Source of the DNA: Acetomicrobium hydrogeniformans ATCC BAA-1850 | GTDB lineage: Bacteria; Synergistota; Synergistia; Synergistales; Acetomicrobiaceae | Length of the DNA stretch: 64,000 bases | Reading direction: 5' to 3' | Assembly: GCF_000160455.2 (NCBI RefSeq) | Contig: NZ_ACJX03000001.1 | Coordinates: forward strand, 124,001-188,000 | Part shown: positions 6,653-60,435 of the stretch, one piece after another | How the letters are laid out: each line of letters begins with the position of its first letter | Numbering within the stretch: the stretch's first letter is position 1 | Translations under genes and position numbers: made by a program | Notes under the pieces: model-generated | Databases searched by the model: none | Told to the model about the DNA's origin: nothing | The model's input: the letters and a program-made list of their open reading frames with translations, nothing else

Positions 6653-6719
6653 TGATGATTCCTCCTCATATAAGTATTGTTTATAATTATGATTAAACTT
6701 TGAAATAATATGAAATTAT

Positions 6720-6753: not shown

Positions 6754-6761
6754 GATGCACG

Positions 6762-42769: not shown

Positions 42770-42816
42770 CTCTATCCCTCCCTTCATTACAACTCATTAA
42801 TACTAAATATCTGAAT

Positions 42817-44822: not shown

Positions 44823-44909
44823 GCAATTAGCCTCCTTCTAAAATAAAGATTAAAACACTATTTGGAGTTCTATACTCTTTTGTATAATAATAATTTCACA
44901 TAAATTATA

Positions 44910-44968
44910 TTCTTTGGGACAAAATCTTGGCTTTTATTTGGTTAGAGCTAAGATTTGCGTCCCAAGAA
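44910..44968 (-). terminator. Long hairpin after hydroxylase C operon
   Basis: On the minus strand TTCTTGGGAC and CAAATCTT pair with AAGATTTTG and GTCCCAAAGAA around a loop of about 20 bases. It lies just after the Fe-S subunit stop and before the NCS1 permease. The tail is AT-rich but not a clean T run. It probably separates the two groups of genes. Confidence 0.6.
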
Positions 44969-44990
44969 ATAGGCTACACGCTTTTATCTA

Positions 44991-45467
44991 TCAAGACGCT
45001 AAGTTCTTGTTAACCGCACTCTCTATCGCCTCTATGATCTGCTCATACCCCGTACAGCGGCACAAATTTCCCTCTATGGCGGTCTTTATCTCCTCCCTGG
45101 TGGGGTTAGGGTTTTTGTCGAGCAAGGCCTTGGCGGACATGAGCATGCCGGGTGTGCAAAAACCGCACTGTACGGCGTGATGCTTTATGAATGCCTCCTG
45201 CAGCGGATGAAGGTGTCCGTTGACCTCTAAGCCTTCGACGGTAAGGACCTCGTTTCCGTCGGCTTGAGCCGTCAAAACCATGCAGGAATGCACAGCCTCA
45301 CCGTCAAGTATTACCGTACATGCTCCGCATTCCCCGACGCCGCAACCTTCCTTCGTGCCCGTAAGGTGAAGGCGCTCCCGCAAGGTGTCGAGCAGCCTTT
45401 CCTTCGGCCCGACTGTAAGGCGATGTTTCGTTCCATTTACGGTGATGGTGACTTCGATATCATTCAT
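44991..45467 (-). CDS. Molybdenum hydroxylase C, Fe-S subunit
   Basis: 158 residues with two 2Fe-2S clusters: GCGVGECGACTVILDG plus HSCMVL, then VQCGFCTPGML and NLCRCTGYEQ. ATG 45467 follows GGAGG by nine bases and overlaps the FAD subunit stop (ATGAATGA). The earlier in-frame start at 45485 would lie within the RBS. Last gene of the hydroxylase C group. Confidence 0.9.
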   Translation of the reverse strand: MNDIEVTITVNGTKHRLTVGPKERLLDTLRERLHLTGTKEGCGVGECGACTVILDGEAVHSCMVLTAQADGNEVLTVEGLEVNGHLHPLQEAFIKHHAVQCGFCTPGMLMSAKALLDKNPNPTREEIKTAIEGNLCRCTGYEQIIEAIESAVNKNLAS

Positions 45468-46335
45468 TGGCCTTCGCCTCCGCAAAAATCGTCTCCAAAG
45501 CGCGCTTTACCAGGCTTGCCAGGGCTATGCGCTTGTAAGGCGTAGACCAGCGAACGCCCGTGGCAGAGATCATCTCCTCGCTTGCCCTTTCGCCTATCTC
45601 GGGTAGATCAATTTCGCCAATCCTTTTGCCGGCAATCGCTTCCTCGGTCTTGCCGAAGCGAATCGGGTACGCCGTCGCTGCGCCCGGCACAATTCTAGGG
45701 TCAAAGACGGTATCGTCTTTTATGCCCAAGACGACCGCCAGATTAATCCTGGCTATGTTCATGGCCTTTCTTCTTCCTATCTTTTGAAAGTTAGCAAAGT
45801 AACCTTCGCCGAGCAAGGGCACACATACTTCCGTCATTATTTCGTCGCTTTGGCGGTTCGTCCTGTAGGGACCGGCCAAAAACTCGCCAAGTGGAAGCTT
45901 TCTTTCGCCCTTCCGGGAACTCAGTTTCACATGCGCCCCAAGAGCAATGAGGGGAGGAATCAGATCGGCAGCAGGCGAGGCGTTGTTTATGTTTCCTCCC
46001 ACAGTGCCTCTGTTTCTTATCTGGGTCGAACCTATGGTCTTGGCAGCCGAGGCGAGCAAGGAGAAGTACTTGTTAATCACGGGAGACTCCACGAGCATCG
46101 TATGAGTGGATAAAGCCCCTATCGCCACGCAGTCCTTTCTTTCTTCGATGAACTTTAATTCCTTTAATCCGCTTATGTCCAGCAAGTACCCGAAACCCTT
46201 AGCTCGCGCGTTTTCCTTCCTGATGTCCACCAAAAGGTCCGTCCCGCCTGCTATGGCTTTCACGCCTTCGTGAGAGCTGAGAAACTCCAGTGCTTCCTTC
46301 AAAGAAGGAGCTTTAAAAAATTCATAGTCTATCAT
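45460..46335 (-). CDS. Molybdenum hydroxylase C, FAD subunit
   Basis: 291-residue FAD-binding subunit. Flavin motifs AIAGGTDLLVDI and TVGGNINNASPAADLIPPL are complete, so flavin binding is expected. It overlaps the large subunit by four bases (ATGA) and the Fe-S subunit by eight. Order large-FAD-Fe-S is that of E. coli XdhABC. Confidence 0.9.
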   Translation of the reverse strand: MIDYEFFKAPSLKEALEFLSSHEGVKAIAGGTDLLVDIRKENARAKGFGYLLDISGLKELKFIEERKDCVAIGALSTHTMLVESPVINKYFSLLASAAKTIGSTQIRNRGTVGGNINNASPAADLIPPLIALGAHVKLSSRKGERKLPLGEFLAGPYRTNRQSDEIMTEVCVPLLGEGYFANFQKIGRRKAMNIARINLAVVLGIKDDTVFDPRIVPGAATAYPIRFGKTEEAIAGKRIGEIDLPEIGERASEEMISATGVRWSTPYKRIALASLVKRALETIFAEAKANE

Positions 46336-48620
46336 TTTTTGCCACGTCCTTTCCTCAAGGGGTGGCCCAAAAGCACCCTCTCCAAGTTCAACGGCAATGA
46401 TCTTATCCTCCTGCCGGTAGCCTGTGCGATGGCGTTGGCTATGGCTGCTGCTCCAAGCTCAAGCGTAGGCTCCCCTATGGATTTTGCGCCGAAAGGTCCG
46501 TCGGGGTCGGGATTTTCGACGATTATGGGGATTATGTTGGGCATGTCCTTAGATGTGGGAATTATATATTCGTCGAAGTTGGTGTTTGCAATATAACCTT
46601 CGTCGGTCTCCACTTCTTCCATGATGCCGTAACCCAGGCCCATCATAACTCCCCCGTATATTTGCCCTTTCAACATCTCAGGATTTATCGCCCGTCCCAC
46701 ATCGTGGGCGGCCGCCATGTTCAAGACCGTCACCTCGCCCGTCCCCATGTCTACTTCTACCTCGGCTATCTGACAGCCGTAGACGTAGGTGAAGTAAGGG
46801 CTTCCCTTTCCTTCCTCCTCGTCCCAGTGAATGCTTGGCGCCACGTACCATCCGACGTGGGACAGCTGGACGCCGGCCCAAAAAGCTTTGTTCGCCGCCT
46901 CAGCAAAGGAAATCAGCTTTTTGCCATCGGGAGTATATATCCAGTTTTCCTTGAACACCAGGTCGCTTGAAGTCAGTCCGAACTCCTCGGCCAGAAAGAG
47001 GGAAAGGGCCCTCTTGGCGCTCTCGGCGGCCCTCATAACGGAGCTTCCTCCCACTAGGGTGGAGCGCGATGCTACTGTGGAGCCGCTGTCCGGTGAGATC
47101 AAGGTATTGGCCTCGAGGAAGGTTATATGTTTCATCTCTATGCCGAGCTCTTCCGCCGCAATCTGACAGAAGGCTGTCTTAAGACCCTGGCCGTTTTCTG
47201 CCAAACCGCTATAAAGGTAAACGCTTCCGTCCTTTTGGATGGACAAAACCGTTCCGGCAGCGTCTACCGCTTCGGCGCCCAGGCTGCAGCCCCTGTAGCT
47301 TATGGCCATTCCTATGCCTCTGCGCTTGTCGCCCTTTTGGGGCTTGCTGTATTCCCTGTATTTTTTTTCGTAGCCTATGGCCTCTGCGGCCTTTTTCATG
47401 ACTTCAGCTAGGCTTACCTCATGGCGGTCAAGCTTCTGTCCGCTCGCCGTTATGGAGCCGTTCCTTAAGATGTTCTTAAGCCTTATCTCAAGCGGGCTTA
47501 TGCCGAGTTCCTGGGCCAGTTCGTCCATCAGGGACTCGTTTGCAAATATCACCTGTGGGGATCCGTAACCGCGCATGGCGCCTGTGTATACGTTGTTGGT
47601 ATAATATCCGTAGGTGTCGGTCTTGACGTTGGGCACTTCATAAGGTCCCGTCGCCTGAACGACGGACCTCCAGGTGACGAAGGGGGTCTGGCAGGCGTAA
47701 GCCCCGCCGTCGGCTATGGCCTCAATTTCCATAGCCATCAGCTTGCCGTCCTTAGTGGCTCCTACTTTATATTTCATCTTATAGGGATGTCTTTTATAGC
47801 TTTCCAGTATGGACTCTTCCCTGGTGTTTACCATTTTAACGGGTCTGTCGGTTTTTAAGGCCAAAAGGGCTGCCCTGCAGGCCATGGCGGATACGACCTC
47901 ATCTTTGCCGCCAAAGCTGCCGCCTATGTGGTTTTGAACGACCCTTACCTTGCTCAGGTCGGCCTTAAGGCACCTTGCCACGGCGTCCCTGGTGGCAAAG
48001 ACGTTTTGAACGGATCCGTAAATCGTCAGCAGGCTTCCGTTTTCATGAGGGACAGCCACGACAGCCTCGGGCTCTATGTAGCTGTGCTCCACAAACTGGG
48101 TCTCGTACTCTCTCTCGATGATGACATCGCTTCCTGCAAAGCCTTCTTCGACGTTGCCCTTTCTCAATTTGTGGTGAACGACTTCGTTGCTGTCCCTGTC
48201 GGGATGGATGAGATGACTTTCCTTTGATTCCAAGGGGTCAAAAATTCCTTCTATTTCTTCGTATTCCACTTCGATAGCTTCTAAGGCCTTGGCAGCGATA
48301 TCAAGGGATTCTGCCGCCACCATGGCTACGCCGTCGCCTATATAGTAGACGCGCTCCTTTGCTAAAACCTGCTGATCCTTGATGATGACGCCTATTTCGT
48401 TGCAGGGAACTTCTTGGGCCGTCATGACGGCCCATACACCCGGTATAGCACGAGCTTTCTCTACGTTAATGCTTTTTATCCTCGCCGAAGGATGCTTTGC
48501 CCGAAGCACCTTGCCGTAAAGCATCCCGGCAAACTGAAGGTCTGCTCCGTATTTTGCCCTTCCCGTCACCTTCTCGTAGGCGTCGACCCTCTCTACGGGC
48601 TTATTTACTGTGCTAAACAT
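46332..48620 (-). CDS. Molybdenum hydroxylase C, large subunit (XdhA-like)
   Basis: 762-residue molybdopterin subunit. Pocket motifs are GGSFGGKDE, with Asp where classic enzymes have the purine-binding Glu, and AMRGYGSPQ; the catalytic Glu is in GAKSIGEPTL. A carboxylate is retained, so hypoxanthine/xanthine is a reasonable substrate. RBS AGAGGAGG precedes ATG 48620. A perfect 12-bp hairpin separates it from the PreA-like gene upstream. Confidence 0.87.
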   Translation of the reverse strand: MFSTVNKPVERVDAYEKVTGRAKYGADLQFAGMLYGKVLRAKHPSARIKSINVEKARAIPGVWAVMTAQEVPCNEIGVIIKDQQVLAKERVYYIGDGVAMVAAESLDIAAKALEAIEVEYEEIEGIFDPLESKESHLIHPDRDSNEVVHHKLRKGNVEEGFAGSDVIIEREYETQFVEHSYIEPEAVVAVPHENGSLLTIYGSVQNVFATRDAVARCLKADLSKVRVVQNHIGGSFGGKDEVVSAMACRAALLALKTDRPVKMVNTREESILESYKRHPYKMKYKVGATKDGKLMAMEIEAIADGGAYACQTPFVTWRSVVQATGPYEVPNVKTDTYGYYTNNVYTGAMRGYGSPQVIFANESLMDELAQELGISPLEIRLKNILRNGSITASGQKLDRHEVSLAEVMKKAAEAIGYEKKYREYSKPQKGDKRRGIGMAISYRGCSLGAEAVDAAGTVLSIQKDGSVYLYSGLAENGQGLKTAFCQIAAEELGIEMKHITFLEANTLISPDSGSTVASRSTLVGGSSVMRAAESAKRALSLFLAEEFGLTSSDLVFKENWIYTPDGKKLISFAEAANKAFWAGVQLSHVGWYVAPSIHWDEEEGKGSPYFTYVYGCQIAEVEVDMGTGEVTVLNMAAAHDVGRAINPEMLKGQIYGGVMMGLGYGIMEEVETDEGYIANTNFDEYIIPTSKDMPNIIPIIVENPDPDGPFGAKSIGEPTLELGAAAIANAIAQATGRRIRSLPLNLERVLLGHPLRKGRGKK

Positions 48621-48641
48621 CTCTTTTCCTCCTCTGGCCTA

Positions 48642-48680
48642 GCTTTAGCCCTGCAGGCCGCATGCCAACAGGGCTAAAGC
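48642..48680 (-). other. Intercistronic hairpin upstream of hydroxylase C
   Basis: GCTTTAGCCCTG at 48642-48653 and CAGGGCTAAAGC at 48669-48680 form a perfect 12-bp stem with a 15-base loop, just after the PreA-like stop and 22 bases before the hydroxylase start. No T tract follows, so RNA processing or expression balancing is likelier than termination. Confidence 0.6.
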
Positions 48681-48686
48681 AGGTGT

Positions 48687-49778
48687 TTAAGACAGTGTAA
48701 TGGCGCCGACCGGGCAACGCGTGTAGCAAAGCCCGCATCCAAAGCAGGCATCGGTAGTAACGCCAGCCTTGCCGGAAGAGCCTACGTTTATGGCGTAGTA
48801 AACACAGGACTCCTCGCATCTGCGACATCCTATGCACTTTTCCTCATTTACGCTTGGAGTCACCTTGACGAGAGGCTCCTTCCTCGAAGACCACTTTTTA
48901 GCAGTCAGCCCTTTTATTTCCTCAAGGGACGAGTAGCCGTGTTCGTCAAGCCACTTCGACGTCTCCTGAGCTATCCTCTTGAAGGCCTTGGGTCCTTCCA
49001 GGATCGCCTGCGTGCATATCTGGACTGCCGACGCTCCTGCCATGAACATTTCGATTACGTCCTCGCCGCTTGAGACTCCTCCTACCCCGATCACAGGTAT
49101 GGAGACAGCATGCGACAGTTCAAAAACGTGTCGAAGGGCGATCCCCTTGATTGCGGGCCCTGATACCCAACCGTAGCCCGTATCGCTTCCCATGTAGGGA
49201 AGGCCGGTCTTTAAGTCTATGCGAAGGGCAGGGCCGACGGAGTTTATGGCAGCTAAGGCGTCAACGCCCACTTCCTCAAGTTTTTTGCCGAGTTCAGCCA
49301 AATCGGGAACTCCCGGGCTTACCTTTACGATGATCGGCTTTTTGGTGGCCTTCCTTGCAGCCGTTACCGTGTTTAACACGGGAGTCAGGTCGCGGCCCAC
49401 GTAGTGAGTGGAAAGCTCGAAGGCATCGGCGAAGGGTTCGGTCTTGGGAATGAGATCGGTCAGCTCTTCGGCCGTATATCCCAATCCAACTATTATCGGA
49501 ACGGGCAGTTCGTAAATCTTATCATATTCTTCTTTAAGCCAATGCTCGGGCGAATGCTCCGACCAAAGCTCTGTATTTATGAAGCTTTCCTTGAAGGCAG
49601 CCATGCACGGGCGCGGAACGTCTGCAGCCTTGGCGGATATGGTCTTCGTGACTACGCCGCCTGCTCCACCTTCTACCATTCTCTTTATGGTCTCGTAATT
49701 CCTTGAAGGAGGTCCTGCAGCTATTATCAGGGGATTTTCGAATTCCATCCCCGCTATCTTAACTTTTAGGTTAGACAT
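48687..49778 (-). CDS. PreA-like flavoprotein (dihydroorotate/dihydropyrimidine dehydrogenase family)
   Basis: 363 residues. An FMN-binding TIM barrel (residues 1 to about 290) carries VKVSPGVPDL, INSVGP and GVGGVSSGED. A C-terminal ferredoxin domain has two 4Fe-4S sets: C315, C318, C321, C325 and C345, C348, C351, C355. The loop that in dihydropyrimidine dehydrogenase reads SCP, with the catalytic Cys, here reads ELSTHYVG at 121-128, with no Cys. So dihydrouracil chemistry is doubtful. Placed between the YgeW-like gene and hydroxylase C, it may reduce or oxidise a purine-derived intermediate. RBS AAAGGAGG. Confidence 0.82.
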   Translation of the reverse strand: MSNLKVKIAGMEFENPLIIAAGPPSRNYETIKRMVEGGAGGVVTKTISAKAADVPRPCMAAFKESFINTELWSEHSPEHWLKEEYDKIYELPVPIIVGLGYTAEELTDLIPKTEPFADAFELSTHYVGRDLTPVLNTVTAARKATKKPIIVKVSPGVPDLAELGKKLEEVGVDALAAINSVGPALRIDLKTGLPYMGSDTGYGWVSGPAIKGIALRHVFELSHAVSIPVIGVGGVSSGEDVIEMFMAGASAVQICTQAILEGPKAFKRIAQETSKWLDEHGYSSLEEIKGLTAKKWSSRKEPLVKVTPSVNEEKCIGCRRCEESCVYYAINVGSSGKAGVTTDACFGCGLCYTRCPVGAITLS

Positions 49779-49797
49779 CTCTCTTTGCCTCCTTTTT

Positions 49798-50781
49798 TTA
49801 CTTTCCGCCCATCGTCAGGGTCATGACGGCCTTGGCCGTGTGTATCCTGTTTTCGGCTTCGTCGTAGACTATGGAATGAGGTCCGTCTATCACGCTGTCT
49901 TCGACCTCATTCTTGCGGTCTGCCGGGAGTGCGTGCATGTACATGACGTCGGGGTCAGCTAAGCTCATCATCTTCTCCGTGCACTTCCAGTGCTTGTTGG
50001 CCTCAAGGCGCGGGTTGATGACCGCCGGGTCAGGGTTAGTCACCCAGTCTCCCCAGTTTTTGGGGATGACCACGTGTGCTCCTTCGTAAGCCTCCTCCTG
50101 GTTATGGGTGATCCTTAAGCTTCCGCCGTTTGCCTTGGCGTTTTCCTCGGCTTGCTTTATGGCCCAATCCGGAAGGTCGTATCCTTCCGGGTAGGCTAGC
50201 GTCACGTCCATGCCGTACCTTGGGAAAAGAAGGACCTGACTCAATGGCACCGATATGGGTTTTTTGTGGGTCGTGGCGTAAGCCCAGATTATCGAGACCT
50301 TAAGCCTCTGGGTGTCTTTGACCTTTTCTTTGATGGTCATCAAGTCGGCCAGCACCTGCATGGGGTGGTAAAGGTCGCACTGGAGGTTCATGACCGGCAC
50401 TGTGGCCCACTGAGCCATCTCCCGCAGGTACTTGTTTCCTATACCCCAGAAGCAATTCCTGCAGGCTATGCCGTGGCCGAACCGCGAGAGTATGATGGCC
50501 GTGTCCTTGGCCGATTCGCCGTGGGCGATCTGCATAGTGCTGGTATCAAGGTAGTTCGCGTGTCCGCCAAGCTGAGCAATGCCGGCTTCCATCGAATTTC
50601 GCGTCCTCGTCGACTGCTCGAAGAACATCAAAAATATGGTTTTATAGGAAAGATAAGGTGTGGGAACTCCCATGGCAAAATGTCTTTTAAGCTCAAAGGA
50701 GACGTCCAAAAGGGTATCGACCTCTTCCTTCGTCCACTCTTGGAGCGTTATAAAATGCTTGTTATGAAACTGCGTCTGCAT
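49798..50781 (-). CDS. ygeW: YgeW-like carbamoyltransferase
   Basis: 327-residue member of the aspartate/ornithine carbamoyltransferase family. Carbamoyl-phosphate motifs are STRTR at 57-61 and HPMQ at 139-142. The amino-acid-binding loop reads HALPAD at 283-288 instead of the HCLP of ornithine enzymes, so the second substrate differs. YgeW-type proteins belong to anaerobic urate/purine degradation loci, where a carbamoyl group from the opened ring is thought to be recovered as carbamoyl phosphate. It is shorter than E. coli YgeW. RBS GAGGGGGT precedes ATG 50781; ygeY is 19 bases upstream. Confidence 0.8.
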   Translation of the reverse strand: MQTQFHNKHFITLQEWTKEEVDTLLDVSFELKRHFAMGVPTPYLSYKTIFLMFFEQSTRTRNSMEAGIAQLGGHANYLDTSTMQIAHGESAKDTAIILSRFGHGIACRNCFWGIGNKYLREMAQWATVPVMNLQCDLYHPMQVLADLMTIKEKVKDTQRLKVSIIWAYATTHKKPISVPLSQVLLFPRYGMDVTLAYPEGYDLPDWAIKQAEENAKANGGSLRITHNQEEAYEGAHVVIPKNWGDWVTNPDPAVINPRLEANKHWKCTEKMMSLADPDVMYMHALPADRKNEVEDSVIDGPHSIVYDEAENRIHTAKAVMTLTMGGK

Positions 50782-50800
50782 ATCTTTTTACCCCCTCACA

Positions 50801-52006
50801 TTAATTTTTCACATTTGAATATACGTAAGGAACGGCAGCGTAAAGGGCAGCAGCCTTCACCAGCTCATCCTTCCAGGTCAGCTCGTTTGGAGCGTGGGCC
50901 TGATCCTCGTGGCCCGGACCGAAGCCTATGCATGGAATACCGTAACGACCCATGATGGAAACACCGTTAGTGGAAAAGGTCCACTTGTCGACTATGGGAT
51001 CTTCGCCAAAAAGCTTTTTATATGATTCGACCACGGTCCTGCAGGCAGGATGATCTTCTTCTACCACCCACGTTGGGAAATAGCAGTCCGTAGGATAGAC
51101 CAACCCTTTCCAGGAGGGACGCGAGTAGGAATAAAGGGACACTTCAGCGCCGCAGTCCTTAACGGCAGGCAGCCTCCTAACCTGTTCCAAGGCTTCCTGC
51201 CAGGTCTCTCCCTTGGTAAGACGTCTGTCTATAGAAATGGTGCAGCTGTCGGCGACGGCACACCTCGACGGAGATGTAAAGAAGATCTCAGAAACGGTCA
51301 AGCTTCCCTTGCCCAAAAACTCGTCGTAGGCAAGGTTTTCATGAAGGGCCCTAAGCTCAAGGATAATGGGAGCCATCTTGTATATGGCGTTTATGCCCCT
51401 TTCAGGCGCGGAACCGTGGCAGGACACTCCTTTGGTCGTAACCTTTATCTCCATCCTCCCGCGCTGGCCCCTGTGGATCTTGCACGATGTCGGCTCGGTT
51501 ATAAGCACGAACTCGGGCCTTATCTTGTCTTCCTCTATGATGTACTGCCAACACAATCCGTCGCAGTCCTCCTCCTGAACGGTCCCCGTTATGAGCACCG
51601 TGCAGTCGCCAAGCAGCCCAAGCTCTTTCATTATCTTTACCCCATAGACCATGGATGCCATTCCACCCTTTTGGTCGCTTGCGCCCCTTCCGCCGATGAC
51701 TTGCTCGTCCTCATAACCCTTGTAAGGATCGAACTTCCAAAGGGATGGATCCCCCACATCCACGGTATCTATGTGAGCATCCATGGCAATCAGCTTAGGA
51801 CCGTTTCCCACGTATCCCAGGACGTTTCCCATGGGGTCTATCTCCACCTTGTCGAAGCCCACATGTTCCATCTCCTGGGCTATCCTTTTTATCACCGCCT
51901 CCTCGCCTGAGCTTTGGCTTGGAAGGGCGATGATGTCCCTCAAAAACTTGCTTATGTTGGCCCTATAGCCCTCGGCCCTTGACAAAATTTCCTTGCTAAG
52001 TTCCAC
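50801..52006 (-). CDS. ygeY: YgeY-like M20 family metallohydrolase
   Basis: 401-residue M20 peptidase-family hydrolase with the full catalytic set: H78 and D80 ([10 protein letters not shown]), D111 (GRGASDQKG), E145 base and E146 ligand (VQEEDCDG), Glu in [14 protein letters not shown], and the C-terminal His in [10 protein letters not shown]. YgeY is part of the urate/purine degradation gene set and probably cleaves an amide or carbamoyl bond of a ring-opened intermediate. GTG start behind GGGGGG. Compare the inactive-looking paralogue at 54842. Confidence 0.85.
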
Positions 52007-52044
52007 GTCAATCCCCCCTAACGGCAGATGCCTGAGTTTGGTTT

Positions 52045-53520
52045 TCAGTTAAGTTTTTTCAAGAGGCCTGTTTTCTCGTTAAACTGCTTTATCAGCTCGT
52101 CGATCTTTGGAGCCATATCGTGTATGCTGCCCCAGTAGTTGTCGTAATCGAACCACTGGGCGTTGAGCTCGTCGGCCGATTTGCCCTGCTGCTCGACCCA
52201 GGTGTAGTACTTGAGGTTGTGAATGCGGAACCTGTCGTAATAGGAAAGCTCGAGCATCCAATCGGAGGTCTGAGACAGCATGTGAACGTGGTGATCCTTT
52301 TCCGCCATGCGCTCGTCGTAAGGACCTTCGCGGTCGCTCATCTCTTGGATTCTTGAGCGGTACATGTCGGCAGAGTCGGTAAAGACAGTGAAAATCACCT
52401 CATGTTCCGTCAAACCGTAGTACTTTGCCATCTTCACGGCACCTATGACGTTGGCAATGCCGGAAATTCCAAGTAGGGACAATTTGTCGGTGACTTCCCT
52501 GGGAATGCCTATGGAGTTCAGGTACCTTTTTCCTGCCTCTTCGTTGAAAAGCCTGAGCAGGCGCAGGCAGGACTCGTCGTCGATATCGATGACCATATCT
52601 GTATTTTTTACGTTATGGATCCAGGGAACGTGCTTGTCGCCGATGCCTTCGATCCTGTGGTCCCCGAAACCGTTATAGAGGAGCGTCGGGCACTGCATTG
52701 CCTCGCCAACGGCGATCTTGCTGTCCGGGAAAATTGTCTTCATATAGTCGCCGCAACCCAGCGTCCCGGCCGAGCCGGATGTGAGCACGACGCCAAAGTA
52801 CCTCTCTCCGGAAGCTGCCAGTTCGTTAACCACTTCTTCCATGGCATGTCCAGTGACCTCGTAGTGCCACAGGTGGTTTCCAAACTCCTCGAACTGGTTG
52901 AATACAACTACGTCATCTCTGGTGCGCTTTAATTCCCAGGTCTTGTCGAAGATCTCCTTGACGTTGCTTTCGCCTCCGGGCGTGGTTATGATCTCGCCTG
53001 CGACGCTTTTAAGCCATTCAAATCTCTCCCTGCTCATGCCTTCGGGAAGTATGGCGATGGAATCACACCCCAGTAACTGGGCATTGTAAGCTCCGCCCCT
53101 GCAGTAGTTTCCGGTAGAAGGCCAGACCGCTTTTTGGGAAGTCGGGTCGAACTGCCCTGTAACCAGACGCGGAACCAAGCAGCCGTAAGTTGCCCCGACT
53201 TTATGTGCCCCCGTGGGGAACCACTTACCGACCAAGGCCACTATCTTGGCCTTTACCCCAGTTATCTCAGGCGGCATGACGAAGTAGTTGACCTTGCCAA
53301 ATGTCCCGCCCTTCTCCTTGGGCTCGTTCTTCCAAGTTATGCGAAAGAGGTTAAGGGAATTTACATCCCAAAGGCCCACACCTTTAAGCTTTCCCTTAAT
53401 AGCTTGGGGAATCTTGGTCGGATCTTTCATTTGCTCGAAGGTCGGAAGGATGATGCCCCTCTCTTTCGCCCTCTCGACTGCTTTTTTCAATATCTCTTCG
53501 TTGATGGTAAGGTCTATCAA
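52045..53520 (-). CDS. Fold-type-II PLP enzyme (TrpB/cysteine synthase-like)
   Basis: 491-residue PLP enzyme of the tryptophan-synthase-beta fold. The PLP lysine is K107 in [13 protein letters not shown]. The phosphate loop appears as [14 protein letters not shown], and a long C-terminal part carries [15 protein letters not shown]. It is not YgeX, the 2,3-diaminopropionate ammonia-lyase of known loci, which is about 100 residues shorter and has a different lysine motif. It lies between ygeY and a threonine-synthase-like gene and may do the YgeX step. TTG start behind AAAGGAG. Confidence 0.75.
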
Positions 53521-53550
53521 TTTCGCTCTCTCCTTTTTGTTTATATTTAT

Positions 53551-54801
53551 CTAATTTTTTTGATTCATAGATCCGAGAACTTGATTTACCGCTTCAAGCG
53601 TGGGTTCGACGAGGAAAGGACTGCCTGCAGCCTTTTTTGCGCTTTCGGAATCCTTCAGGCCGTTTCCGGTAACTATTACTGCCACACGCTCATTGCTGCC
53701 CAGTTTGCCTGTATGGGCATACTTAAGCAACCCCGCAAAACCCGTAACGCCTGCGGGCTCGCCAAACACTCCGCTGGTGCGGGCCAACAACCTCATAGCC
53801 TCAAGTATCTGGTCGTCCGACACAGCGACCATATCGCCACTCGATTTTCTGACAGCTCTAAGAGCCTTTGCCCAGTTTCGCGGTTCGCCCACGGCTATGC
53901 TGTCGGCCAACGTATTGGTGGGTTCCTTTTCGATGACGTTTTTGCCTTCTTTAAAGGCCTTATATATGGGACAAGCGCCTTCTGCCTGAACGCCTATCAG
54001 CTGAGGGATACGACTTATCAGCCCTATTTGTTTTAAGTCGTAAAAGGCCTTGTAAAAGCTGCTTATTATGCAGCCGTCGCCTACCGAGACGAACACCTTG
54101 TCGGGCAGGTCGAAGGACAGCTCCTCGGCCAGCTCCAGCCCGCAGGTCTTTTTGCCCTCCACCAGATAGGGATTGATGGCGCTGTTTCTGTTGTACCAAC
54201 CGTAAGCATCTATGGCCTTCACGGCGAGCTTAAAGGCATCCTCGTAGGTGCCTTTTACCAAAAATACCTTGGCCCCGTAGATCAAAAGTTGGGTCACCTT
54301 GTTTACCGGAGCCTTTTCGGGCACGAATATGTAGCAGTCAAGCCCTGCGACGGCAGCGCATCCTGCCAGAGAGCTTGCGGCGTTACCGGTAGAGGCGCAC
54401 GCTATGGACGTAGCGCCCTTTTCTCTGGCCTTGGCCACACCTACAAAGCTCGCCCTGTCCTTGAATGATGCCGTTGGGTTCCTTCCGTCGTCTTTTATTA
54501 AGACCTGTTTAATGCCCAGCTTTTTTGCCCAATAGGTGCTTTCGTAAAGAGGTGAACAGCCGACTTTCAGGTTTGGGAAAAAGGTCGGATCATTTATGGG
54601 AAGAAGCTCTATGTAGCGGGAGATGCTTCTTTCTTTATTTCCGGCTAAAGCCTCGGGCGTAAATTTCCGCCTCACATCATCGTAATCGTAGAATACGTCC
54701 AGGGTGCCATCGGGCCCGCAATCAGGACAGGTAAAGACGTCGCTGTTCGGGTCGAATTCCCTTCCGCAAAGCACGCACTTTAGTTTATCCGCTGAAGCCA
54801 C
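53551..54801 (-). CDS. Threonine-synthase-like PLP enzyme with zinc ribbon
   Basis: 416 residues. An N-terminal zinc ribbon has CVLC and CPDC pairs near residues 9-28. The PLP lysine is in RNPTASFKDRAS, about residue 114. The glycine loop is STGNAASSLAGCAAVAG, and VSVGDGC and VTGNGLKD follow. It resembles threonine synthase, but homoserine genes are absent nearby. In this operon a beta-elimination on a diamino acid from purine breakdown is plausible. GTG 54801 is eight bases from AGGAGG; ATG 54807 lies too close to it. Confidence 0.75.
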   Translation of the reverse strand: MASADKLKCVLCGREFDPNSDVFTCPDCGPDGTLDVFYDYDDVRRKFTPEALAGNKERSISRYIELLPINDPTFFPNLKVGCSPLYESTYWAKKLGIKQVLIKDDGRNPTASFKDRASFVGVAKAREKGATSIACASTGNAASSLAGCAAVAGLDCYIFVPEKAPVNKVTQLLIYGAKVFLVKGTYEDAFKLAVKAIDAYGWYNRNSAINPYLVEGKKTCGLELAEELSFDLPDKVFVSVGDGCIISSFYKAFYDLKQIGLISRIPQLIGVQAEGACPIYKAFKEGKNVIEKEPTNTLADSIAVGEPRNWAKALRAVRKSSGDMVAVSDDQILEAMRLLARTSGVFGEPAGVTGFAGLLKYAHTGKLGSNERVAVIVTGNGLKDSESAKKAAGSPFLVEPTLEAVNQVLGSMNQKN

Positions 54802-54841
54802 GATCATTACCTCCTAATCTTTTATCTTTGAATTGTAAAAA

Positions 54842-56056
54842 CTACGAAGCATCGAGATAGGACACTGCTATAGCCATATATCCCTGAGTAGCCTTGACAA
54901 GCTGCTCTATGTTCACTCTTTCGTCTTTTGTATGGGCCAGCTGTTCCTTGGATGGTCCGAAGCTAATCGTGGGGATGCCTTTAATCCCACCGTAAAAGCA
55001 GCCGTTCGTCCCAAACCCGGATTCGGAAAGGGAGGGCTCCATACCCAGGTAGTGCAACCCTCTCAAGGCCCTTTCGATCAATTCTTCGTTTTCTCCGAAA
55101 AACCAACCCGGGGCGAAATGCTTCACCTTGATCCTCTTTCCCGTAAAACACTGCACGTAATCCTCAGCCACCTTTACGTCGGCCTGGATATCCGGGTCTA
55201 TGTCACGTGCCAAAGATATCAGGCGTGCCACTTCTTCCACTACACTGCTTTCCGCCTCTCCGGCCAAAAGCCTCCTGTCGAAGGTGGCCACGCAGTTGTC
55301 GGGCAAAACGCTCGTTCCCATGGATGGGGCGGTTGACAAATCGGTCAGGACCATTATCCCGTCTCCGAGTAAGTAGTGGCGGGGCGGCAGGAAATGCTGC
55401 TTTATAAACGTGAGGAGAAAGACCATCTTTTCAGCTGCATTGACACCTGAAAGAGGGAAAGAGGTGTGAGCGCTTTTTCCTTGGGCTTCGATGACAATTT
55501 CCGCCCTTCCTCGTTGGCCCCTTTTGATGTTTAAATTAGACGCTTCTCCGATCACAACGCCGTCGGGCTTGAAGATCTCGTATACTTTAGACGAAGCTAC
55601 ACCTTCGGCAACCTCTTGGTTGACGACGCAAGCGACGGCAAGTTCGCCATAAAGAAAATCGGAGCACTTTTTAAGTTCACTGCCGGCGATTATCATCGCG
55701 GCCAGGCTGCCCTTTGCGTCAACCGATCCCCTTCCGCAGATATGGCCGTCGATTACCGTCCCCCCGTAGGGGTAAAAGGACCACTCAATGGCATCGCTAA
55801 CGCCGACGTGATCCATTTGCGCCTCAAAGAGAAGGCGCCTTCCTCCGGGATTAAACGCAATCTTTCCTACGACGTTTCCCATCTCGTCAATAATTACCTC
55901 ATCGTAACCAAGCGACAGCATGAGGTCGTGGATAAAATAGGCGATCCTTTCCTCCCTGCCTGACGTACTGGGGATGGATATCAACTTGGAACATAACTCG
56001 GTTATAGTTTGAGGTGAGACCTGTCCCGCAATCGCTTGAACGGTTTCCTGCACCAA
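54842..56056 (-). CDS. M20-family paralogue of YgeY with altered active site
   Basis: 404 residues, alignable without gaps to YgeY around the catalytic motifs. AQMDHVGVSD has Q80 where YgeY has the metal-binding His. VVNQEVAEG has Q147 where YgeY has the catalytic Glu base; the ligand Glu (E148), D82, D113 (GRGSVDAKG), E171 (GEASN) and the C-terminal His (KEQLAHTKDE) remain. The fold is intact, so it may be a non-hydrolytic partner, a carrier, or an enzyme with other chemistry. First gene of the purine block, with a good promoter shared with lysR. Confidence 0.8.
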   Translation of the reverse strand: MVQETVQAIAGQVSPQTITELCSKLISIPSTSGREERIAYFIHDLMLSLGYDEVIIDEMGNVVGKIAFNPGGRRLLFEAQMDHVGVSDAIEWSFYPYGGTVIDGHICGRGSVDAKGSLAAMIIAGSELKKCSDFLYGELAVACVVNQEVAEGVASSKVYEIFKPDGVVIGEASNLNIKRGQRGRAEIVIEAQGKSAHTSFPLSGVNAAEKMVFLLTFIKQHFLPPRHYLLGDGIMVLTDLSTAPSMGTSVLPDNCVATFDRRLLAGEAESSVVEEVARLISLARDIDPDIQADVKVAEDYVQCFTGKRIKVKHFAPGWFFGENEELIERALRGLHYLGMEPSLSESGFGTNGCFYGGIKGIPTISFGPSKEQLAHTKDERVNIEQLVKATQGYMAIAVSYLDAS

Positions 56057-56097
56057 TACACTAACCTCGCTATTATGGGAATCATTTGTTGATTTTT

Positions 56098-56148
56098 ATT
56101 ATAACTGATATTCTATAAGTTACAATTAATAAATATTTTTGATATACT
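56098..56148. promoter_or_regulatory. Face-to-face promoters of the purine block and lysR
   Basis: Minus strand: TTGTAA (56125-56120), 16-base spacer, TATAAT (56103-56098) drives the purine block. Plus strand: TTACAA (56120-56125), 17-base spacer, TATACT (56143-56148) in an extended TGATATACT drives lysR. Both use the same six bases as -35 box, so the two polymerases should exclude each other. An AT-rich dyad between them (TTATAAC/TATAAGT) is a candidate LysR site. Confidence 0.75.
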
Positions 56149-56190
56149 TTAGGCATGTCTTATACAAATGATAAAGGGAGAGATGATGAG

Positions 56191-57084
56191 ATGACCCTAC
56201 AACAGCTAAAGACCTTTCTCGCCGTTTGCGAGGAAATGTCCATAACGCAGGCTGCCTTCAAACTTTTTATCACTCAGTCGGCCGTAAGCCAGCAAATAAA
56301 GGCTCTGGAGGAAGAATTCGATATTAAACTTTTCGAAAAAAGGGGCAGGCGTCTTTGCATTACAGCGGAGGGCAAGATTTTCCGGGATAGCGCCAAGGAG
56401 ATCGTTGAAAATGCAGAGCTTATAGTAGAAAAGCTCAAGGCCAGCAAAAGCCTGGAGGTGGGGAAATTAAACATGGCCAGCACCCATCATTTGGCACAGT
56501 ATCTTCTAATGAATCCTCTCTTGGAATTTCATAAAAGCTATCCAAAAATAGACCTGTCCCTCCACACTCTCGATGCTAGCGAGATAAAATCCGCCGTCGA
56601 ATCCAAAACAGTTGACATTGGCTTCATGCCCGACGGAGCTGCCGTCTTTTCTCCTCACTTAAGAATTACTAAAATATACGAAGATCGCATGGCCTTAATA
56701 GCCTGGCCAGGACATCCGTGGCGAGAAGAGGAAAAAATAAAGCCATCGCAATTGTCAGGGGAGCCCCTTGTATTCGCATCTACGCCCTCAAGCATTAACG
56801 AGATAGCCCTCGCTTTTTTGAAACGACATCACATACATATCGATACCGTTATTGACGTCGGTAACATCGATCTTCTAAAGGAAGCGGTGAGACATCGTGT
56901 GGGAGTGGCACTGACGAGCAAGCTCGCGGTCCGGGAAGACATCAGCCAGGGAAGCCTTATCGAGCTTCCCCTTTCGGGAATCGATGAATTGAGCTTTAAT
57001 TTCCTCATGCTAACCCACAAAGAAGAAGAACCGAGCTATCCCTCCTGGGCCTTTCAAAAAATCTTGAAGGGATATCTGCCCTAA
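56191..57084 (+). CDS. LysR-family transcriptional regulator
   Basis: 297-residue LysR protein. The winged helix begins in the usual way, MTLQQLKTFLAVCEEMSITQAAFKLFITQSAVSQQI split over residues 1-36, and is followed by a periplasmic-binding-like effector domain. The start is ATG 56191: the predicted transcription start is near 56155, so the ATG at 56155 would lie at the very 5' end, while AGGGAG at 56175-56180 serves the later one. Divergent from the YgeY paralogue, it is the likely regulator of the purine block; a purine intermediate as signal is inference. Confidence 0.85.
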   Translation: MTLQQLKTFLAVCEEMSITQAAFKLFITQSAVSQQIKALEEEFDIKLFEKRGRRLCITAEGKIFRDSAKEIVENAELIVEKLKASKSLEVGKLNMASTHHLAQYLLMNPLLEFHKSYPKIDLSLHTLDASEIKSAVESKTVDIGFMPDGAAVFSPHLRITKIYEDRMALIAWPGHPWREEEKIKPSQLSGEPLVFASTPSSINEIALAFLKRHHIHIDTVIDVGNIDLLKEAVRHRVGVALTSKLAVREDISQGSLIELPLSGIDELSFNFLMLTHKEEEPSYPSWAFQKILKGYLP

Positions 57085-57092
57085 TTAAAAAT

Positions 57093-57101
57093 TGTTATAA
57101 T
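57093..57101 (+). promoter_or_regulatory. Extended -10 promoter of the candidate selenoprotein gene
   Basis: TGTTATAAT is an extended -10 element just after the lysR stop; no good -35 is visible. Transcription would begin near 57108, about 50 bases before ATG 57157. Confidence 0.5.
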
Positions 57102-57129
57102 TATGCCGTAAACATGGTTATTACAACCC

Positions 57130-57151
57130 TTTACCGCCACGTGGAGGTAAA
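57130..57151 (+). promoter_or_regulatory. 22-bp near-perfect palindrome overlapping the RBS
   Basis: Arms TTTACC and GGTAAA flank a central CCACGTGG, with one mismatch pair, so 20 of 22 positions are symmetric. The right half contains the GGAGGT ribosome site of the gene at 57157. It could be a DNA operator, or an RNA hairpin hiding the ribosome site. Confidence 0.6.
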
Positions 57152-57156
57152 ATTAG

Positions 57157-57528
57157 ATGAGGAAACACAAGATAAAGATATTCATGGAAAAACCCTACAC
57201 GGCAACATGCTGAACATCTTACCAGTATCGGGACGAGGAAATGCAAACCTTCTCCCGAAGGGCCGACCGTGAGTCGGTAGGAGCTTTGCTGCGAAATCTG
57301 CACTTTAATTTTAATGATGCCTTTGAGGTAGATATCATCGACCCGCGATGTTTGTTGTGGTTTTTCGATTTCATCAAATACAAAGTCAGAACAACTGAAC
57401 CCACCTGGGTTTTGGACGGAAAAGTCATATACAGAGGCATCCCCGCGTGGGAGGAACTCGAAAAAATACTGCGCGATACCTGCCAAGACCTATTTAAGGA
57501 TACAGCTGTAAAGGGACCTTCGAGCTAA
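57157..57528 (+). CDS. Candidate selenoprotein, small thioredoxin-like (in-frame TGA)
   Basis: GGAGGT at 57143-57148 lies eight bases before ATG 57157. The frame reads MRKHKIKIFMEKPYTATC, then TGA at 57211-57213 (codon 19), then runs on without a break for 104 codons to TAA. If TGA is read as selenocysteine, the product is a 123-residue protein with an adjacent Cys18-Sec19 pair at the end of the first strand, where thioredoxin folds keep their redox site. A strand FEVDIIDPR, a helix, the cis-Pro region TEPTWVLDG, the strand VIYRGI and a final helix WEELEKIL follow in thioredoxin order. A SECIS-like hairpin lies at 57228-57258. The alternative is a gene broken by a nonsense mutation, or a shorter product from ATG 57241, which would lack the redox site. 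Confidence 0.6.
57228..57258 (+). promoter_or_regulatory. SECIS-like hairpin after the in-frame TGA
   Basis: TCGGGA at 57228-57233 pairs with TCCCGA at 57253-57258. Above one unpaired C, GAGG (57235-57238) pairs with CTTC (57249-57252) including one G-U. The apical loop begins about 26 bases after the TGA, within the 16-37 base window of bacterial SECIS elements. If the top two pairs open, the loop begins with GG as in known cases. Confidence 0.5.
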
Positions 57529-57660
57529 TTCGCGAAACCAAACAGCCTGGGCAAGAACAAAGTTCAGTGTAATCTTCCTGATATTTTGATATACTCAAAT
57601 CGCTGTTACAAAGAATTTTTAATCCATAAACCACTTCTATCACCGTTAGGAGGAATGGCG
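57529..57660. other. Intergenic region with the purE promoter
   Basis: An extended -10 TGATATACT lies at about 57589-57597; the -35 region is weak. No other feature seen. Confidence 0.45.
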
Positions 57661-58182
57661 ATGCAGAAACCGCTAATAGGCATAGTGATGGGGTCGAACT
57701 CAGATGCAGAGCGCCTAAAGGGCGCTTTTGAAGTATTGAAGGAATTGGAAGTTCCTTTTGAAGTCACGATAGCTTCAGCTCACAGGACTCCAAAGGACGT
57801 GGCAAACTACGCTAAAAAGGCAAAGGATCGGGGTATCAAGGTAATTATAGCCGCAGCCGGGCTTTCGGCTGCTTTGCCGGGTGTTTTGGCCGCCCACACG
57901 ACGCTTCCCGTCATAGGCATCCCGTTGGAAGTCGGCCCATTAAAGGGTATGGACGCCCTGCTCGCCATGGCTCAAATGCCTCCGGGAATACCAGTCGCGA
58001 CCGTGGGAATAGGACAGGCCATCAATGCTGCCCTCCTTGCGGTTCAAATTCTTTCCCTTCAAGACCCCTCATGTAGCAAAAAGACCGCCCAATACCGGGA
58101 GAAGGCATCAAAGAAAGTATCGACGGCACGAGACGCTTTGACCGAGCTTCCTAAAGCTCCGCCAGAGGCATTTTTAGACTAA
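57661..58182 (+). CDS. purE: N5-CAIR mutase (class I PurE)
   Basis: 173 residues. Moves the carboxyl group of N5-CAIR to make CAIR, the substrate of the PurC part of the fusion at 21219. Signature GIVMGSNSDAERLKGA, then ASAHRTPKDV, AAAGLSAALPGVLAAHT and MPPGIPVATVGIG. ATG 57661 lies seven bases after AGGAGG (57648-57653); ATG 57655 is too close. It is apart from the other pur genes, and purK is not in the window. Confidence 0.95.
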   Translation: MQKPLIGIVMGSNSDAERLKGAFEVLKELEVPFEVTIASAHRTPKDVANYAKKAKDRGIKVIIAAAGLSAALPGVLAAHTTLPVIGIPLEVGPLKGMDALLAMAQMPPGIPVATVGIGQAINAALLAVQILSLQDPSCSKKTAQYREKASKKVSTARDALTELPKAPPEAFLD

Positions 58183-58194
58183 GACCTTTTATTC

Positions 58195-58234
58195 AAAAAC
58201 TGGCCTACACCCTCATCGGCGCAGGCCAGTTTTT
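58195..58234. terminator. Terminator between convergent purE and glyA
   Basis: AAAAACTGGCCT at 58195-58206 pairs with AGGCCAGTTTTT at 58223-58234. The A run and T run make it work on both strands. Confidence 0.9.
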
Positions 58235-58257
58235 TCGCCATACCCTACAAATATCTT

Positions 58258-59532
58258 TTAAGCCCAAGGATTGCTCAGTTCCGGATAAAGCGGGAATCGG
58301 TGGGCAAGCTCCTTGACCTCGCGGTAAACCTTTTCTTTTTCGCTTTCGTTGTCGGGATTGGACAAGGCTCTGTCGATTAGGTCGGCTACGAGCTCCATCT
58401 CCTTTTCTTTCATTCCCCTGGTCGTTAAAGCAGGAGTTCCTATGCGAATGCCGCTTGTCACCATCGGCTTTTCGGGGTCAAAGGGGATCATGTTCTTGTT
58501 TACGGTGATGCCCACACTTTCCAGGACTTTTTCGGCTTCCTTGCCCGTTATATTTTTGCTCCTCAGATCCACAAGTATCATGTGGTTATCCGTGCCTCCC
58601 GAGACGAGCCTGAAGCCTCGCTCGCTAAGCCCCTTAGCCAAAGCCTTTGCGTTGGCAACGATCTGCTGGGCGTACTCCTTGAATTCAGGTTGCATGGCCA
58701 GATGGAAACATACCGCTTTGGCTGCTATAACGTGCATGAAGGGACCGCCCTGGATGCCCGGGAAGACAGTTCGATCCAGCTGCGCACCATATTTTTCTTT
58801 GCAGAGGATCAAGGCGCCCCGCGGACCGCGCAGTGTCTTATGGGTAGTCGTGGTCACAAAATCTGCATAAGGCACAGGGCTGGGATGGGCGCCTCCTGCG
58901 ACAAGCCCGGCTATGTGGGCCATGTCGACCATCAAAATTGCGCCCACTTCCCGGGCTATATCGCTGAAACGTTTGAAGTCAATGAAACGCGGATAGGCAC
59001 TTGCGCCAGCGACAATCACCTTGGGTCTGTGTTCCTTGGCCAAAGCCTCGACGGCTTCGTAATCTATAGTCTCCGTATCGGGCTTAACTCCATAGGGGAC
59101 GATCTTATACCATTTGCCCGTAAAGTTCAAAGGATGCCCGTGCGAAAGGTGACCTCCCTGATCCAGGTTCATGGCAAGGAGCGTATCTCCCGGCTCCATC
59201 ACCGAAAAATAGACGGCCATGTTGGCCTGCGTTCCCGAGTGGGGCTGAACGTTGGCATGCTCCGCCCCGAAAAGTTCACACGCCCGCTTTATGGCCAATT
59301 CTTCGATGTTCTCCACATATTCGCAACCGCCATAGTATTTTTTATGGGGGTATCCTTCTGCGTATTTATTGGTAAGTACCGAACCCTGGGCTTGAAGGAC
59401 CGCCAATGAGACGAAGTTTTCCGAAGCAATGAGCTCCAATCCGTCGCGTTGTCTGGATAATTCGCCTTCCATCATCCCGCAAACCGTGGGATCCGCCTGG
59501 GATAACGATGAGATCAAGCTCTTTTCTATCAT
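58258..59532 (-). CDS. glyA: Serine hydroxymethyltransferase
   Basis: 424-residue PLP enzyme that turns serine and tetrahydrofolate into glycine and methylene-THF, feeding PurD and PurN/PurH. The PLP lysine is in [27 protein letters not shown] and [13 protein letters not shown] are also typical. ATG 59532 (MIEKSLISS) follows GGAGGAG; an upstream in-frame start at 59550 lies across that site. The 5' region has a CTGCTGT/ACAGCAG hairpin at 59562-59584. Confidence 0.95.
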
Positions 59533-59769
59533 TTTTCTCCTCCTTGACAAAGGCTTTTGTTCTGCTGTTCCACGAGGACAGCAGTGTGCACTTTACATAT
59601 TATTTTAGAGCTTTATTCTTTAAGAAGCAATTCAATATACCTTTCGTTCTACATAATAAAAAACTTATGACTATGACTTGCCTAAAAATCAGCCCCCGCA
59701 CTTCAACAAAAAAAGGGTAAAATCGATCACAAAAAGGTTATAAGGATTATATCGGGGAGGAAAAGAATA

Positions 59770-60435
59770 ATGACAAAAGACGAATTTGCAAAATATATCG
59801 ATCATACGAATTTAAGTCCTAAGGCTACGCATTCGGATATAAAAACTTTATGCGAGGATGCCCTTCGATACAACTTTGCCGCCGTTTGCGTAAATCCCTG
59901 TAGAGTGGGCTTTGCAGCATCGTTTCTTGAAGGTTCTAGCGTAAAAGTCGCTTCCGTTGTGGGTTTTCCCTTGGGGGCAACCTTCACTGAGGCCAAAGCA
60001 CTTGAAACTAAATATGCCCTAAGAAGCGGCGCATCCGAGATAGATATGGTCATAAATATCGGAGCCCTGAAGGATGGGGATGACAATTTTGTCATAAAAG
60101 ACATCTCCGCCGTAGTAAAAGCTGCTGACGGCGCTACGGTAAAGGTTATACTTGAGTGCTGTTATCTGACGGATGAAGAGAAAGCGAGAGGCTGCCGGCT
60201 GTCGGTCAAAGGGGGAGCAAATTTCGTCAAAACCTCTACAGGATTTGGAAGCAGCGGAGCAACGATAGAAGATGTGAAGATCCTTCGCGAAAATGTACCA
60301 GCAAACATAGGAGTTAAAGCCGCCGGAGGAATTCGCGATTTTAAAACCGCTTACGCTTTTATAAAAGTTGGTGCAACCAGGATAGGAACGAGCAGCGGGC
60401 CTCAAATAATGTCCTCTTTTGATCCTTTGGTTTAA
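59770..60435 (+). CDS. deoC: Deoxyribose-phosphate aldolase
   Basis: 221-residue class I aldolase cleaving 2-deoxyribose 5-phosphate to acetaldehyde and glyceraldehyde 3-phosphate. The Schiff-base lysine is in NFVKTSTGF and the second lysine in NIGVKAAGGIR; the opening EFAKYIDHTNLSPKAT is typical. RBS GGGGAGG. It takes the sugar half from deoxynucleoside breakdown. Single gene followed by a strong terminator. Confidence 0.95.
   Translation: MTKDEFAKYIDHTNLSPKATHSDIKTLCEDALRYNFAAVCVNPCRVGFAASFLEGSSVKVASVVGFPLGATFTEAKALETKYALRSGASEIDMVINIGALKDGDDNFVIKDISAVVKAADGATVKVILECCYLTDEEKARGCRLSVKGGANFVKTSTGFGSSGATIEDVKILRENVPANIGVKAAGGIRDFKTAYAFIKVGATRIGTSSGPQIMSSFDPLV

Follow-up and report, generated by a model that had tools for sequence, protein, structure and literature searches.

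The window, a 64,000-nucleotide stretch of the Acetomicrobium hydrogeniformans ATCC BAA-1850 genome, encodes an M20-fold protein in which two Gln residues stand in place of a metal-binding His and the general-base Glu of M20 hydrolases, and both Gln residues are fixed in all of its orthologues that we found. The protein is predicted to be a pseudohydrolase that binds a ureido- or N-acyl-amino acid without cutting it, a reading to which we give an even chance. Hereafter, Q-form denotes the Gln/Gln type of M20 protein encoded at 54842-56056, and H-form denotes its sister type with an intact site.

An intact M20-fold gene at the head of an operon

The Q-form gene is the first of its strand's run and is divergent from a LysR gene. 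The genes of the region are as follows.

56155-57084, forward strand: LysR-type regulator gene, divergent (Pfam LysR_substrate and HTH_1)
54842-56056, reverse strand: Q-form M20-fold protein of 404 aa, intact ORF
53551-54807, reverse strand: threonine-synthase-like PLP enzyme (ThrC-like), 35 bp downstream of the Q-form gene (TIGR00260, 233.2 bits; cut-off 167.1)
52045-53520, reverse strand: PLP2, a PLP fold-type II protein, cysteine-synthase-like (Pfam PALP, 48.3 bits; no NCBIfam cut-off reached)
50801-52006, reverse strand: YgeY hydrolase with its H/E site intact (TIGR03526, 687.3 bits; cut-off 321.5)
49798-50781, reverse strand: YgeW/OTC-like carbamoyltransferase (OTC, 255.7 bits, under the cut-off of 280.85)
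48687-49778, reverse strand: dihydropyrimidine-dehydrogenase-like (PreA/UacX-type) flavoenzyme (Pfam DHO_dh plus 4Fe-4S)
44991-48620, reverse strand: three ORFs read as xanthine-dehydrogenase-type subunits (ORF reading)
41432-42787, reverse strand: SsnA amidohydrolase, a urate-gene-cluster marker (NF005540, 534.6 bits; cut-off 444)

The Q-form ORF starts at TTG, or at GTG one codon later, and contains no internal stops, in agreement with the earlier note, which had described the gene as intact and first in its operon. A promoter scan of 55900-56300 gave one plausible site for the Q-form gene, and its two sites in all are no excess over the shuffle mean of 1.3. Membership of the M20 peptidase fold family is supported by the Pfam matches (Peptidase_M20, 67.5 bits against a cut-off of 24.6; M20_dimer, 38.8 bits against 21) and by an AlphaFold2 model, which shows a confident M20 fold (pLDDT 94.2, pTM 0.92) and carries no information on metal content. 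The nearest solved structure to the model is DapE (7uoi; Foldseek E 1.7e-33; Z 41.4, rmsd 2.7, 368 aligned), and the fold of 5-nitroanthranilate aminohydrolase is also near (Z 39.5). The Q-form exceeds the cut-off of the NCBIfam model NF009555 for YgeY-family hydrolases (366.5 against 321 bits), a score test that is blind to residues 80 and 147, and falls under that of TIGR03526 for YgeY (243.3 against 321.5 bits) and under every DapE/ArgE cut-off among the 25 NCBIfam families shown.

Both Gln residues are fixed in the Synergistota orthologues found

The ortholog search covered 180 genomes of the order, with the DNA read around matches above 250 bits, a threshold that weaker or fragmentary Q-form copies may escape. 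The Q-form was found in 42 of them, one copy each, in 17 genera and six of the order's ten families, and both Gln residues are present in all 42 distinct full-length orthologues. The earlier note had named this fixation as a check on its claim, and orthologues with His and Glu, which it had set as the contrary outcome, are absent. Among 224 aligned M20 rows, a count that takes in fragments, repeats and the reference copy, 89 are Gln/Gln, 135 are His/Glu and none is mixed. The class comparison used 42 Q-form, 61 H-form and 22 YgeY rows, leaving out rows shorter than 330 aa, rows gapped at named sites and distant M20s. The signature QDDQEERHH (positions 80, 82, 113, 147, 148, 171, 182, 197 and 375) is found in 41 of the 42 Q-form rows; the sole exception, L085, carries E171D, R182P and C353A. 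The Gln codons are CAG or CAA (33 and 9 at position 80, 34 and 8 at position 147), each one base from a His or Glu codon.

A scan of named genomes, built on two peptide patterns so that Q-forms without both would escape it, returned 67 related loci. The 25 with a Q-form are all Synergistota by title, and the other 42 have H-type rows only, 6 of them from Synergistota and 36 from Clostridia, Negativicutes, Acidobacteria, Spirochaetales and others. Among the H-type loci beyond Synergistota, L162 is distant, at 28-30% identity. A locus titled Acetomicrobium hydrogeniformans (L103) has a Q-form only ~47% identical to that of the window, and its name may be wrong.

The Q-form gene is under purifying selection, with pairwise dN/dS of 0.025-0.16 (pairs with dS above 0.1, several of them with saturated dS). 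Values for the ThrC-like neighbour are similar, and those for YgeY and YgeW are mostly lower. Strain-specific decay or sequencing noise, to which we give next to no credence, is refuted by the 42 orthologues in 17 genera, by purifying selection and by the lack of stops in the listed matches, and has nothing in its favour. The supposition of the earlier note that the gene is kept for some purpose gains support from this selection and from the conserved rest of the pocket. Judged by sequence, the Q-form fits the definition of a pseudoenzyme, namely a gene that is intact and under selection but whose product has consistently lost its catalytic residues.

Within the genus, the window and genome G006 share 78% identity in the Q-form and 72% in LysR, against 92-99% in six genes compared further downstream. 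Set against L089 and L091, which belong to the same species or genus, LysR and most of the Q-form show 96-99% identity, and set against L093 (from G006) they show 71-79%; the genes from ThrC-like to xanthine dehydrogenase are about 85-95% identical to L089, L091 and L093 alike. This mosaic divergence (window positions 44500-60000) points to a putative recombination breakpoint near 54,500, close to the start of the ThrC-like gene. A faster decay of the Q-form in the genus under relaxed selection was considered and dropped, since LysR and the Q-form track the flanking background and the segment from ThrC-like to xanthine dehydrogenase looks exchanged.

The metal-1 His and the general base are lost from a retained pocket

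The residues of the active site and its surroundings are encoded as follows.

55817-55819, reverse strand: Gln80 (codon CAA), in place of the metal-site-1 His ligand; Gln in 42/42 orthologues
55718-55720, reverse strand: Asp113, bridging metal ligand, kept; 42/42
55616-55618, reverse strand: Gln147 (codon CAA), in place of the general-base Glu; Gln in 42/42 orthologues
55613-55615, reverse strand: Glu148, metal-2 ligand, kept; 42/42
55544-55546, reverse strand: Glu171, metal-1 ligand, kept; 41/42, Asp in L085
55466-55468, reverse strand: His197, lid histidine (equivalent of DapE H194); 42/42
54998-55012, reverse strand: substrate loop Gly349-Thr350-Asn351-Gly352-Cys353, diagnostic of the Q-form in the class alignment
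54932-54934, reverse strand: His375, metal-2 ligand, kept; 42/42

Alignment places Gln80 and Gln147 at His78 and Glu145 of the window's YgeY, which confirms the substitutions described in the earlier note and its statement that the other metal ligands are kept. A profile of 16 Gln-form sequences, aligned to solved DapE chains, matches the same two residues to the metal His of DapE and to the leading Glu of its Glu-Glu pair. In DapE (Vibrio numbering), an Asp bridges the two zinc ions, a His and a Glu complete the Zn1 site, and a Glu and a His complete the Zn2 site, as described in excerpts of PMC4012986. By this comparison, the loss in the Q-form is that of the Zn1 His together with the base, with the Zn2 ligands intact. 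A competent M20 hydrolase requires both a complete dinuclear site that includes the metal-1 His and a general-base Glu before the metal-2 Glu, and all 42 Q-forms have Gln at both positions.

In an excerpt of PMC11270798, the DapE substrate is bound by E134, A136, H194, R258 and T325 together with N245 of the other chain, and G324 and T325 contact the substrate. From the profile alignment, we read G324 and T325 as probable equivalents of Q-form residues 349 and 350 and place N245 at 249. The substrate loop separates the classes: the Q-form has Gly349 (42/42), Thr350 (42/42) and Cys353 (41/42), the H-form Cys349 (59/61) and Ser353 (61/61), and YgeY Ser349/Val353. Cys353 occurs in none of the 61 H-form and none of the 22 YgeY rows. 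Columns fixed differently in the Q-form (at least 90%) and the H-form (at least 85%) are 80, 147, 240, 349 and 353; they thus comprise the metal site, the base and the substrate loop, with 240 a conservative Leu/Ile exchange.

The rest of the pocket is kept at a mean pairwise identity of 52% among Q-form rows. Of 387 columns, 71 are conserved in 41 or more of the 42 rows, and D82, D113, E148, E171, H197, R262, T350 and H375 all fall among them, an overlap whose naive chance of ~1e-6 ignores the ancestral state of these residues. Seven of these eight residues do not vary across the 53 rows of an alignment of Q-form, H-form and YgeY, so part of this conservation may serve the fold. His80 and Glu147 are present in every His/Glu row and were nonetheless lost in the Q-form, and we regard the retention of the other pocket residues after this loss as the informative point.

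The lid loop behaves differently. Both forms were compared in 16 of the 17 genomes that carry them (G173 was left out because its H-form is cut by a contig end). Over residues 239-252, identity is 0.47 in the Q-form and 0.90 in the H-form, against overall values of 0.54 and 0.68. Some 20 positions fixed in the H-form vary in the Q-form, including most of 245-250. The DapE counterpart of this loop appears, from the alignment and the published contacts excerpted above, to reach the substrate of the other subunit.

The Q-form is one clade that groups with the H-forms

A tree of 99 M20 rows unites the 42 Q-form rows in one clade (support 100/100), which joins the H-forms (99/98) apart from YgeY; four distant M20s with very long branches make the deep part of this tree unsure. 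A second tree of 85 rows with 19 Q-forms was built by a quick method after columns 80 and 147 had been removed and H-forms of other phyla added. The 19 Q-form rows still fall on one side of a branch (SH-aLRT 98) and nest among the H-forms. Support is 99 for the node that unites all 19 with 25 of the 26 Synergistota H-forms and 7 of the 34 other H-forms, and further forks near it are weak (59-70). On these trees, the Q-form has a single origin.

The nearest relative of the Q-form with an intact site is the H-form: the Q-form is 44% identical to the H-form of its own genome (41-48% across the order) and 33% identical to the YgeY of its operon. The description of the gene as a YgeY paralogue in the earlier note therefore holds loosely, and the operon YgeY is not its closest kin. 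The H-form shares family, length and pocket with the Q-form, adjoins it in tandem in 10 genomes, and also exceeds the NF009555 cut-off (467.4 bits in the one tested), a model named 'YgeY family selenium metabolism-linked hydrolase'. It differs in having His80 and Glu147, a loop that is mostly C349/S353 and a fixed lid loop. YgeY has the M20 fold and stands in the same operon in the window, but differs in its low identity, in the TIGR03526 cut-off that the Q-form misses and in the active-site residues that the Q-form has lost. DapE and ArgE offer the closest solved fold and equivalent metal and substrate residues; unlike them, the Q-form lacks the Zn1 His and the base Glu and misses their NCBIfam cut-offs.

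The only H-form of the window's genome lies in a small island in L055 (near 871 kb of this genome) and is absent from five other genomes of the genus. The island lies between two ORFs at 6202-7086 and 12744-13601 of L055, which look near-identical over the 150 aa compared and which we take to be panB-like; besides the H-form M20, it contains genes that are presumably Asp-racemase-like and Na/alanine-symporter-like. This arrangement suggests that the H-form of this genome was recently acquired.

In G040, G044, G067, G073, G083, G084, G108, G109 and G111, matches to YgeY relatives are broken into two parts around residue 225. The gap is short (72 bases in G044) and the frame is open throughout, which suggests, from the reading frame, a putative insertion in the lid domain.

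Gene neighbourhood and the urate pathway

A divergent LysR gene is the nearest labelled upstream gene in all 41 loci with upstream sequence, where labelling was limited to genes similar to the reference set, and it mostly lies no more than 400 bp from the Q-form gene, although the distance is 1,583 bp in L104. In Synergistota, the Q-form gene stands first and the ThrC-like gene usually comes next, preceded or accompanied by an H-form in 10 genomes. Many loci then carry genes for SHMT, PLP2, a TRAP transporter, YgeY and YgeW-like proteins, and in L053, L054 and L085 SHMT follows the Q-form in place of the ThrC-like gene. Across the 180 genomes, the Q-form occurs with PLP2 in 41 of 42 genomes, with the H-form in 17, with YgeY in 28, with either in 39 and with neither in 3; the H-form occurs without the Q-form in 11 genomes and YgeY in 44. 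Fisher p-values for such co-occurrence overstate significance, since the genomes are related. PLP2 (491 aa, no NCBIfam equivalog) is found in 74 of the 180 genomes. In a mirror-tree comparison of 30 chosen loci, distances of the Q-form correlate with those of the other genes at 0.84-0.96, except for DctP at 0.48.

In the reductive urate pathway, YgeY and YgeX of Escherichia coli together convert albizziin into pyruvate, according to an excerpt of PMC12507026. The window extends the Q-form operon with a UacX-like gene, xanthine-dehydrogenase-type genes and SsnA. The carbamoyltransferase at 49798-50781 scores under every curated carbamoyltransferase cut-off listed (190.1 and 173.3 bits for the YgeW models, against 453 and 500), and the large xanthine-dehydrogenase-type ORF at 46332-48620, the only one of the three matched to families, exceeds no cut-off. 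Elsewhere in the window's genome, a D-hydantoinase scores over its cut-off and a further protein has a 62% match, the latter presumably carbamate-kinase-like. We infer from these genes that the Q-form operon acts in the catabolism of ureido-amino acids derived from purines.

No diaminopropionate ammonia-lyase exceeds its cut-off in the window's genome, so that, should the known urate route operate in it, at least one step would have to be taken over by another factor. PLP2 was rejected as YgeX, the diaminopropionate ammonia-lyase, because it reaches no NCBIfam cut-off; PLP2 and the ThrC-like gene are together candidates to stand in for the missing enzyme.

Among the 36 H-type loci beyond Synergistota, SsnA is found in 9 and an amidohydrolase of the UacY kind, so labelled by similarity to L053, in 23, within fetched DNA that includes some short contigs. 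The fuller of these loci also carry PreA/UacX-type and xanthine-dehydrogenase genes. This is the reductive urate gene set given in excerpts of PMC12507026 and PMC12990295, which makes the H-form a member of urate clusters in at least some cases.

Functional interpretation

We propose that an active H-form hydrolase of ureido- or N-acyl-amino acids would have been duplicated once, in an ancestor of those Synergistota lineages in which the Q-form occurs. With the Zn1 His and the general base lost, the hydrolytic step should be abolished, as expected from the M20 mechanism. The retained D113, E148, E171 and H375, the lid His, R262 and T350 would make up a pocket in which no more than one metal is tightly bound, and this pocket would bind an intermediate of the operon's ureido-amino-acid (purine-derived) catabolism uncut. 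The Q-form would then most likely be a metabolite-binding partner of the pathway (a buffer, sensor or regulator), perhaps acting with the divergent LysR, a link that could be mere neighbourhood. Such a binder accounts for the facts better than gene decay or a simple scaffolding role, since the change falls exactly at the base and Zn1, is always paired and leaves the rest of the pocket in place; the conserved pocket argues against a pure scaffold and the variable lid loop against a role in completing the active site of a partner. In excerpts of PMC4012986, the T325A and T325S variants of DapE have similar Km values with kcat reduced 25-50-fold, which indicates that binding and catalysis are separable in the M20 fold. 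Loss of the equivalent ligand can also harm folding, as the H80A and H80K variants of Escherichia coli ArgE are reported as insoluble in an excerpt of PMC4320195. Conservation of the pocket is equally expected for a changed catalyst, and the roughly 20 variable positions and the lower conservation of the Q-form than of the H-form also fit relaxed constraint. A broader proposal, in which an old paired change of His and Glu to Gln turned the hydrolase into a natural substrate trap or a mononuclear non-hydrolytic catalyst of anaerobic ureido-amino-acid/purine catabolism, possibly reporting an intermediate to LysR, is offered tentatively.

A dead partner that pairs with an active M20 protein (the H-form or YgeY) in a heterodimer so as to activate, stabilise or regulate it, in the manner of prozyme-type paralogues, is rather unlikely in our judgement. 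Activation by dead paralogues is described, in the literature excerpts available, for AdoMetDC/prozyme, deoxyhypusine synthase and the mitochondrial processing peptidase. Prozyme and the alpha subunit of the processing peptidase resemble the Q-form as duplicates of an enzyme that lost active-site residues and were kept, but belong to other protein families, and the Q-form retains its pocket and has a partner only by hypothesis. The dimerisation domain of DapE is needed for catalysis according to excerpts of PMC4012986, His197 is invariant, and 39 of the 42 Q-form genomes contain an H-form or YgeY gene. However, no partner gene is constant: three genomes, in a set where several are incomplete, have neither (G022, 93% complete; G029, 96%; G032, 85%), and the distance correlations single out no partner, although that with YgeY is the highest (0.96). 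A pure partner would also have no need of its own metal ligands. A heterodimer completed in trans is thus less favoured, given a lid loop that is not kept, with the equivalent of DapE N245 in it, and the lack of a constant partner, while the tandem Q-form and H-form genes keep it alive.

New chemistry, in which the metal-2 site (D113, E148 and H375) with Gln80, Gln147 and Cys353 carries out a non-hydrolytic reaction on a pathway intermediate, seems unlikely. It would suit the metal-2 ligands kept in all 42 rows, the near-fixed and class-specific Cys353 and the lack of an ammonia-lyase over the cut-off, and 5-nitroanthranilate aminohydrolase, which is among the close folds, works by an unusual mononuclear mechanism. 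Nevertheless, these two substitutions are what would disable the site, no new acid or base is evident, and Cys353 is Ala in one Q-form row (L085). That the Q-form is still a hydrolase, with Gln80 ligating the metal through its oxygen and another residue or a metal-bound hydroxide serving as the base, is improbable. The other M20 metal ligands, the named binding residues and the NF009555 score accord with it, but all 135 other rows have both His and Glu and none just one, and in a homology model of ArgE the base Glu is joined via a second water to the bridging water (excerpt of PMC4320195). The binder remains our preferred reading.

Open-access searches returned, among the matches listed, no paper that joins Synergistota and ygeY, a weak absence. 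A search on M20 pseudoenzymes and inactive M20 proteins likewise gave nothing on the Q-form among the titles and abstract openings listed, which is also weak. Four papers, three of them on aminoacylases, use 'non-peptidase homologue' together with M20. In the pseudopeptidase review PMC11266112, 'M20' occurs only inside two DOI strings, and 5-nitroanthranilic acid aminohydrolase matched only unrelated open-access papers.

If the preferred reading is true, a pseudohydrolase family has spread through one phylum, hidden under the hydrolase model NF009555. Pipelines based on that model would annotate the Q-form as a YgeY-family hydrolase and those based on TIGR03526 would not, so urate-degradation calls in Synergistota made through 'YgeY' matches can count a protein without the catalytic residues. 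The Q-form is close to a segment of anaerobic purine catabolism, the late steps of which were elucidated in 2025, according to excerpts of PMC12507026 and PMC12990295. With an H-form adjacent in 10 genomes and few columns separating the two forms cleanly, the family would offer a clean test of why a dead metallohydrolase is kept.
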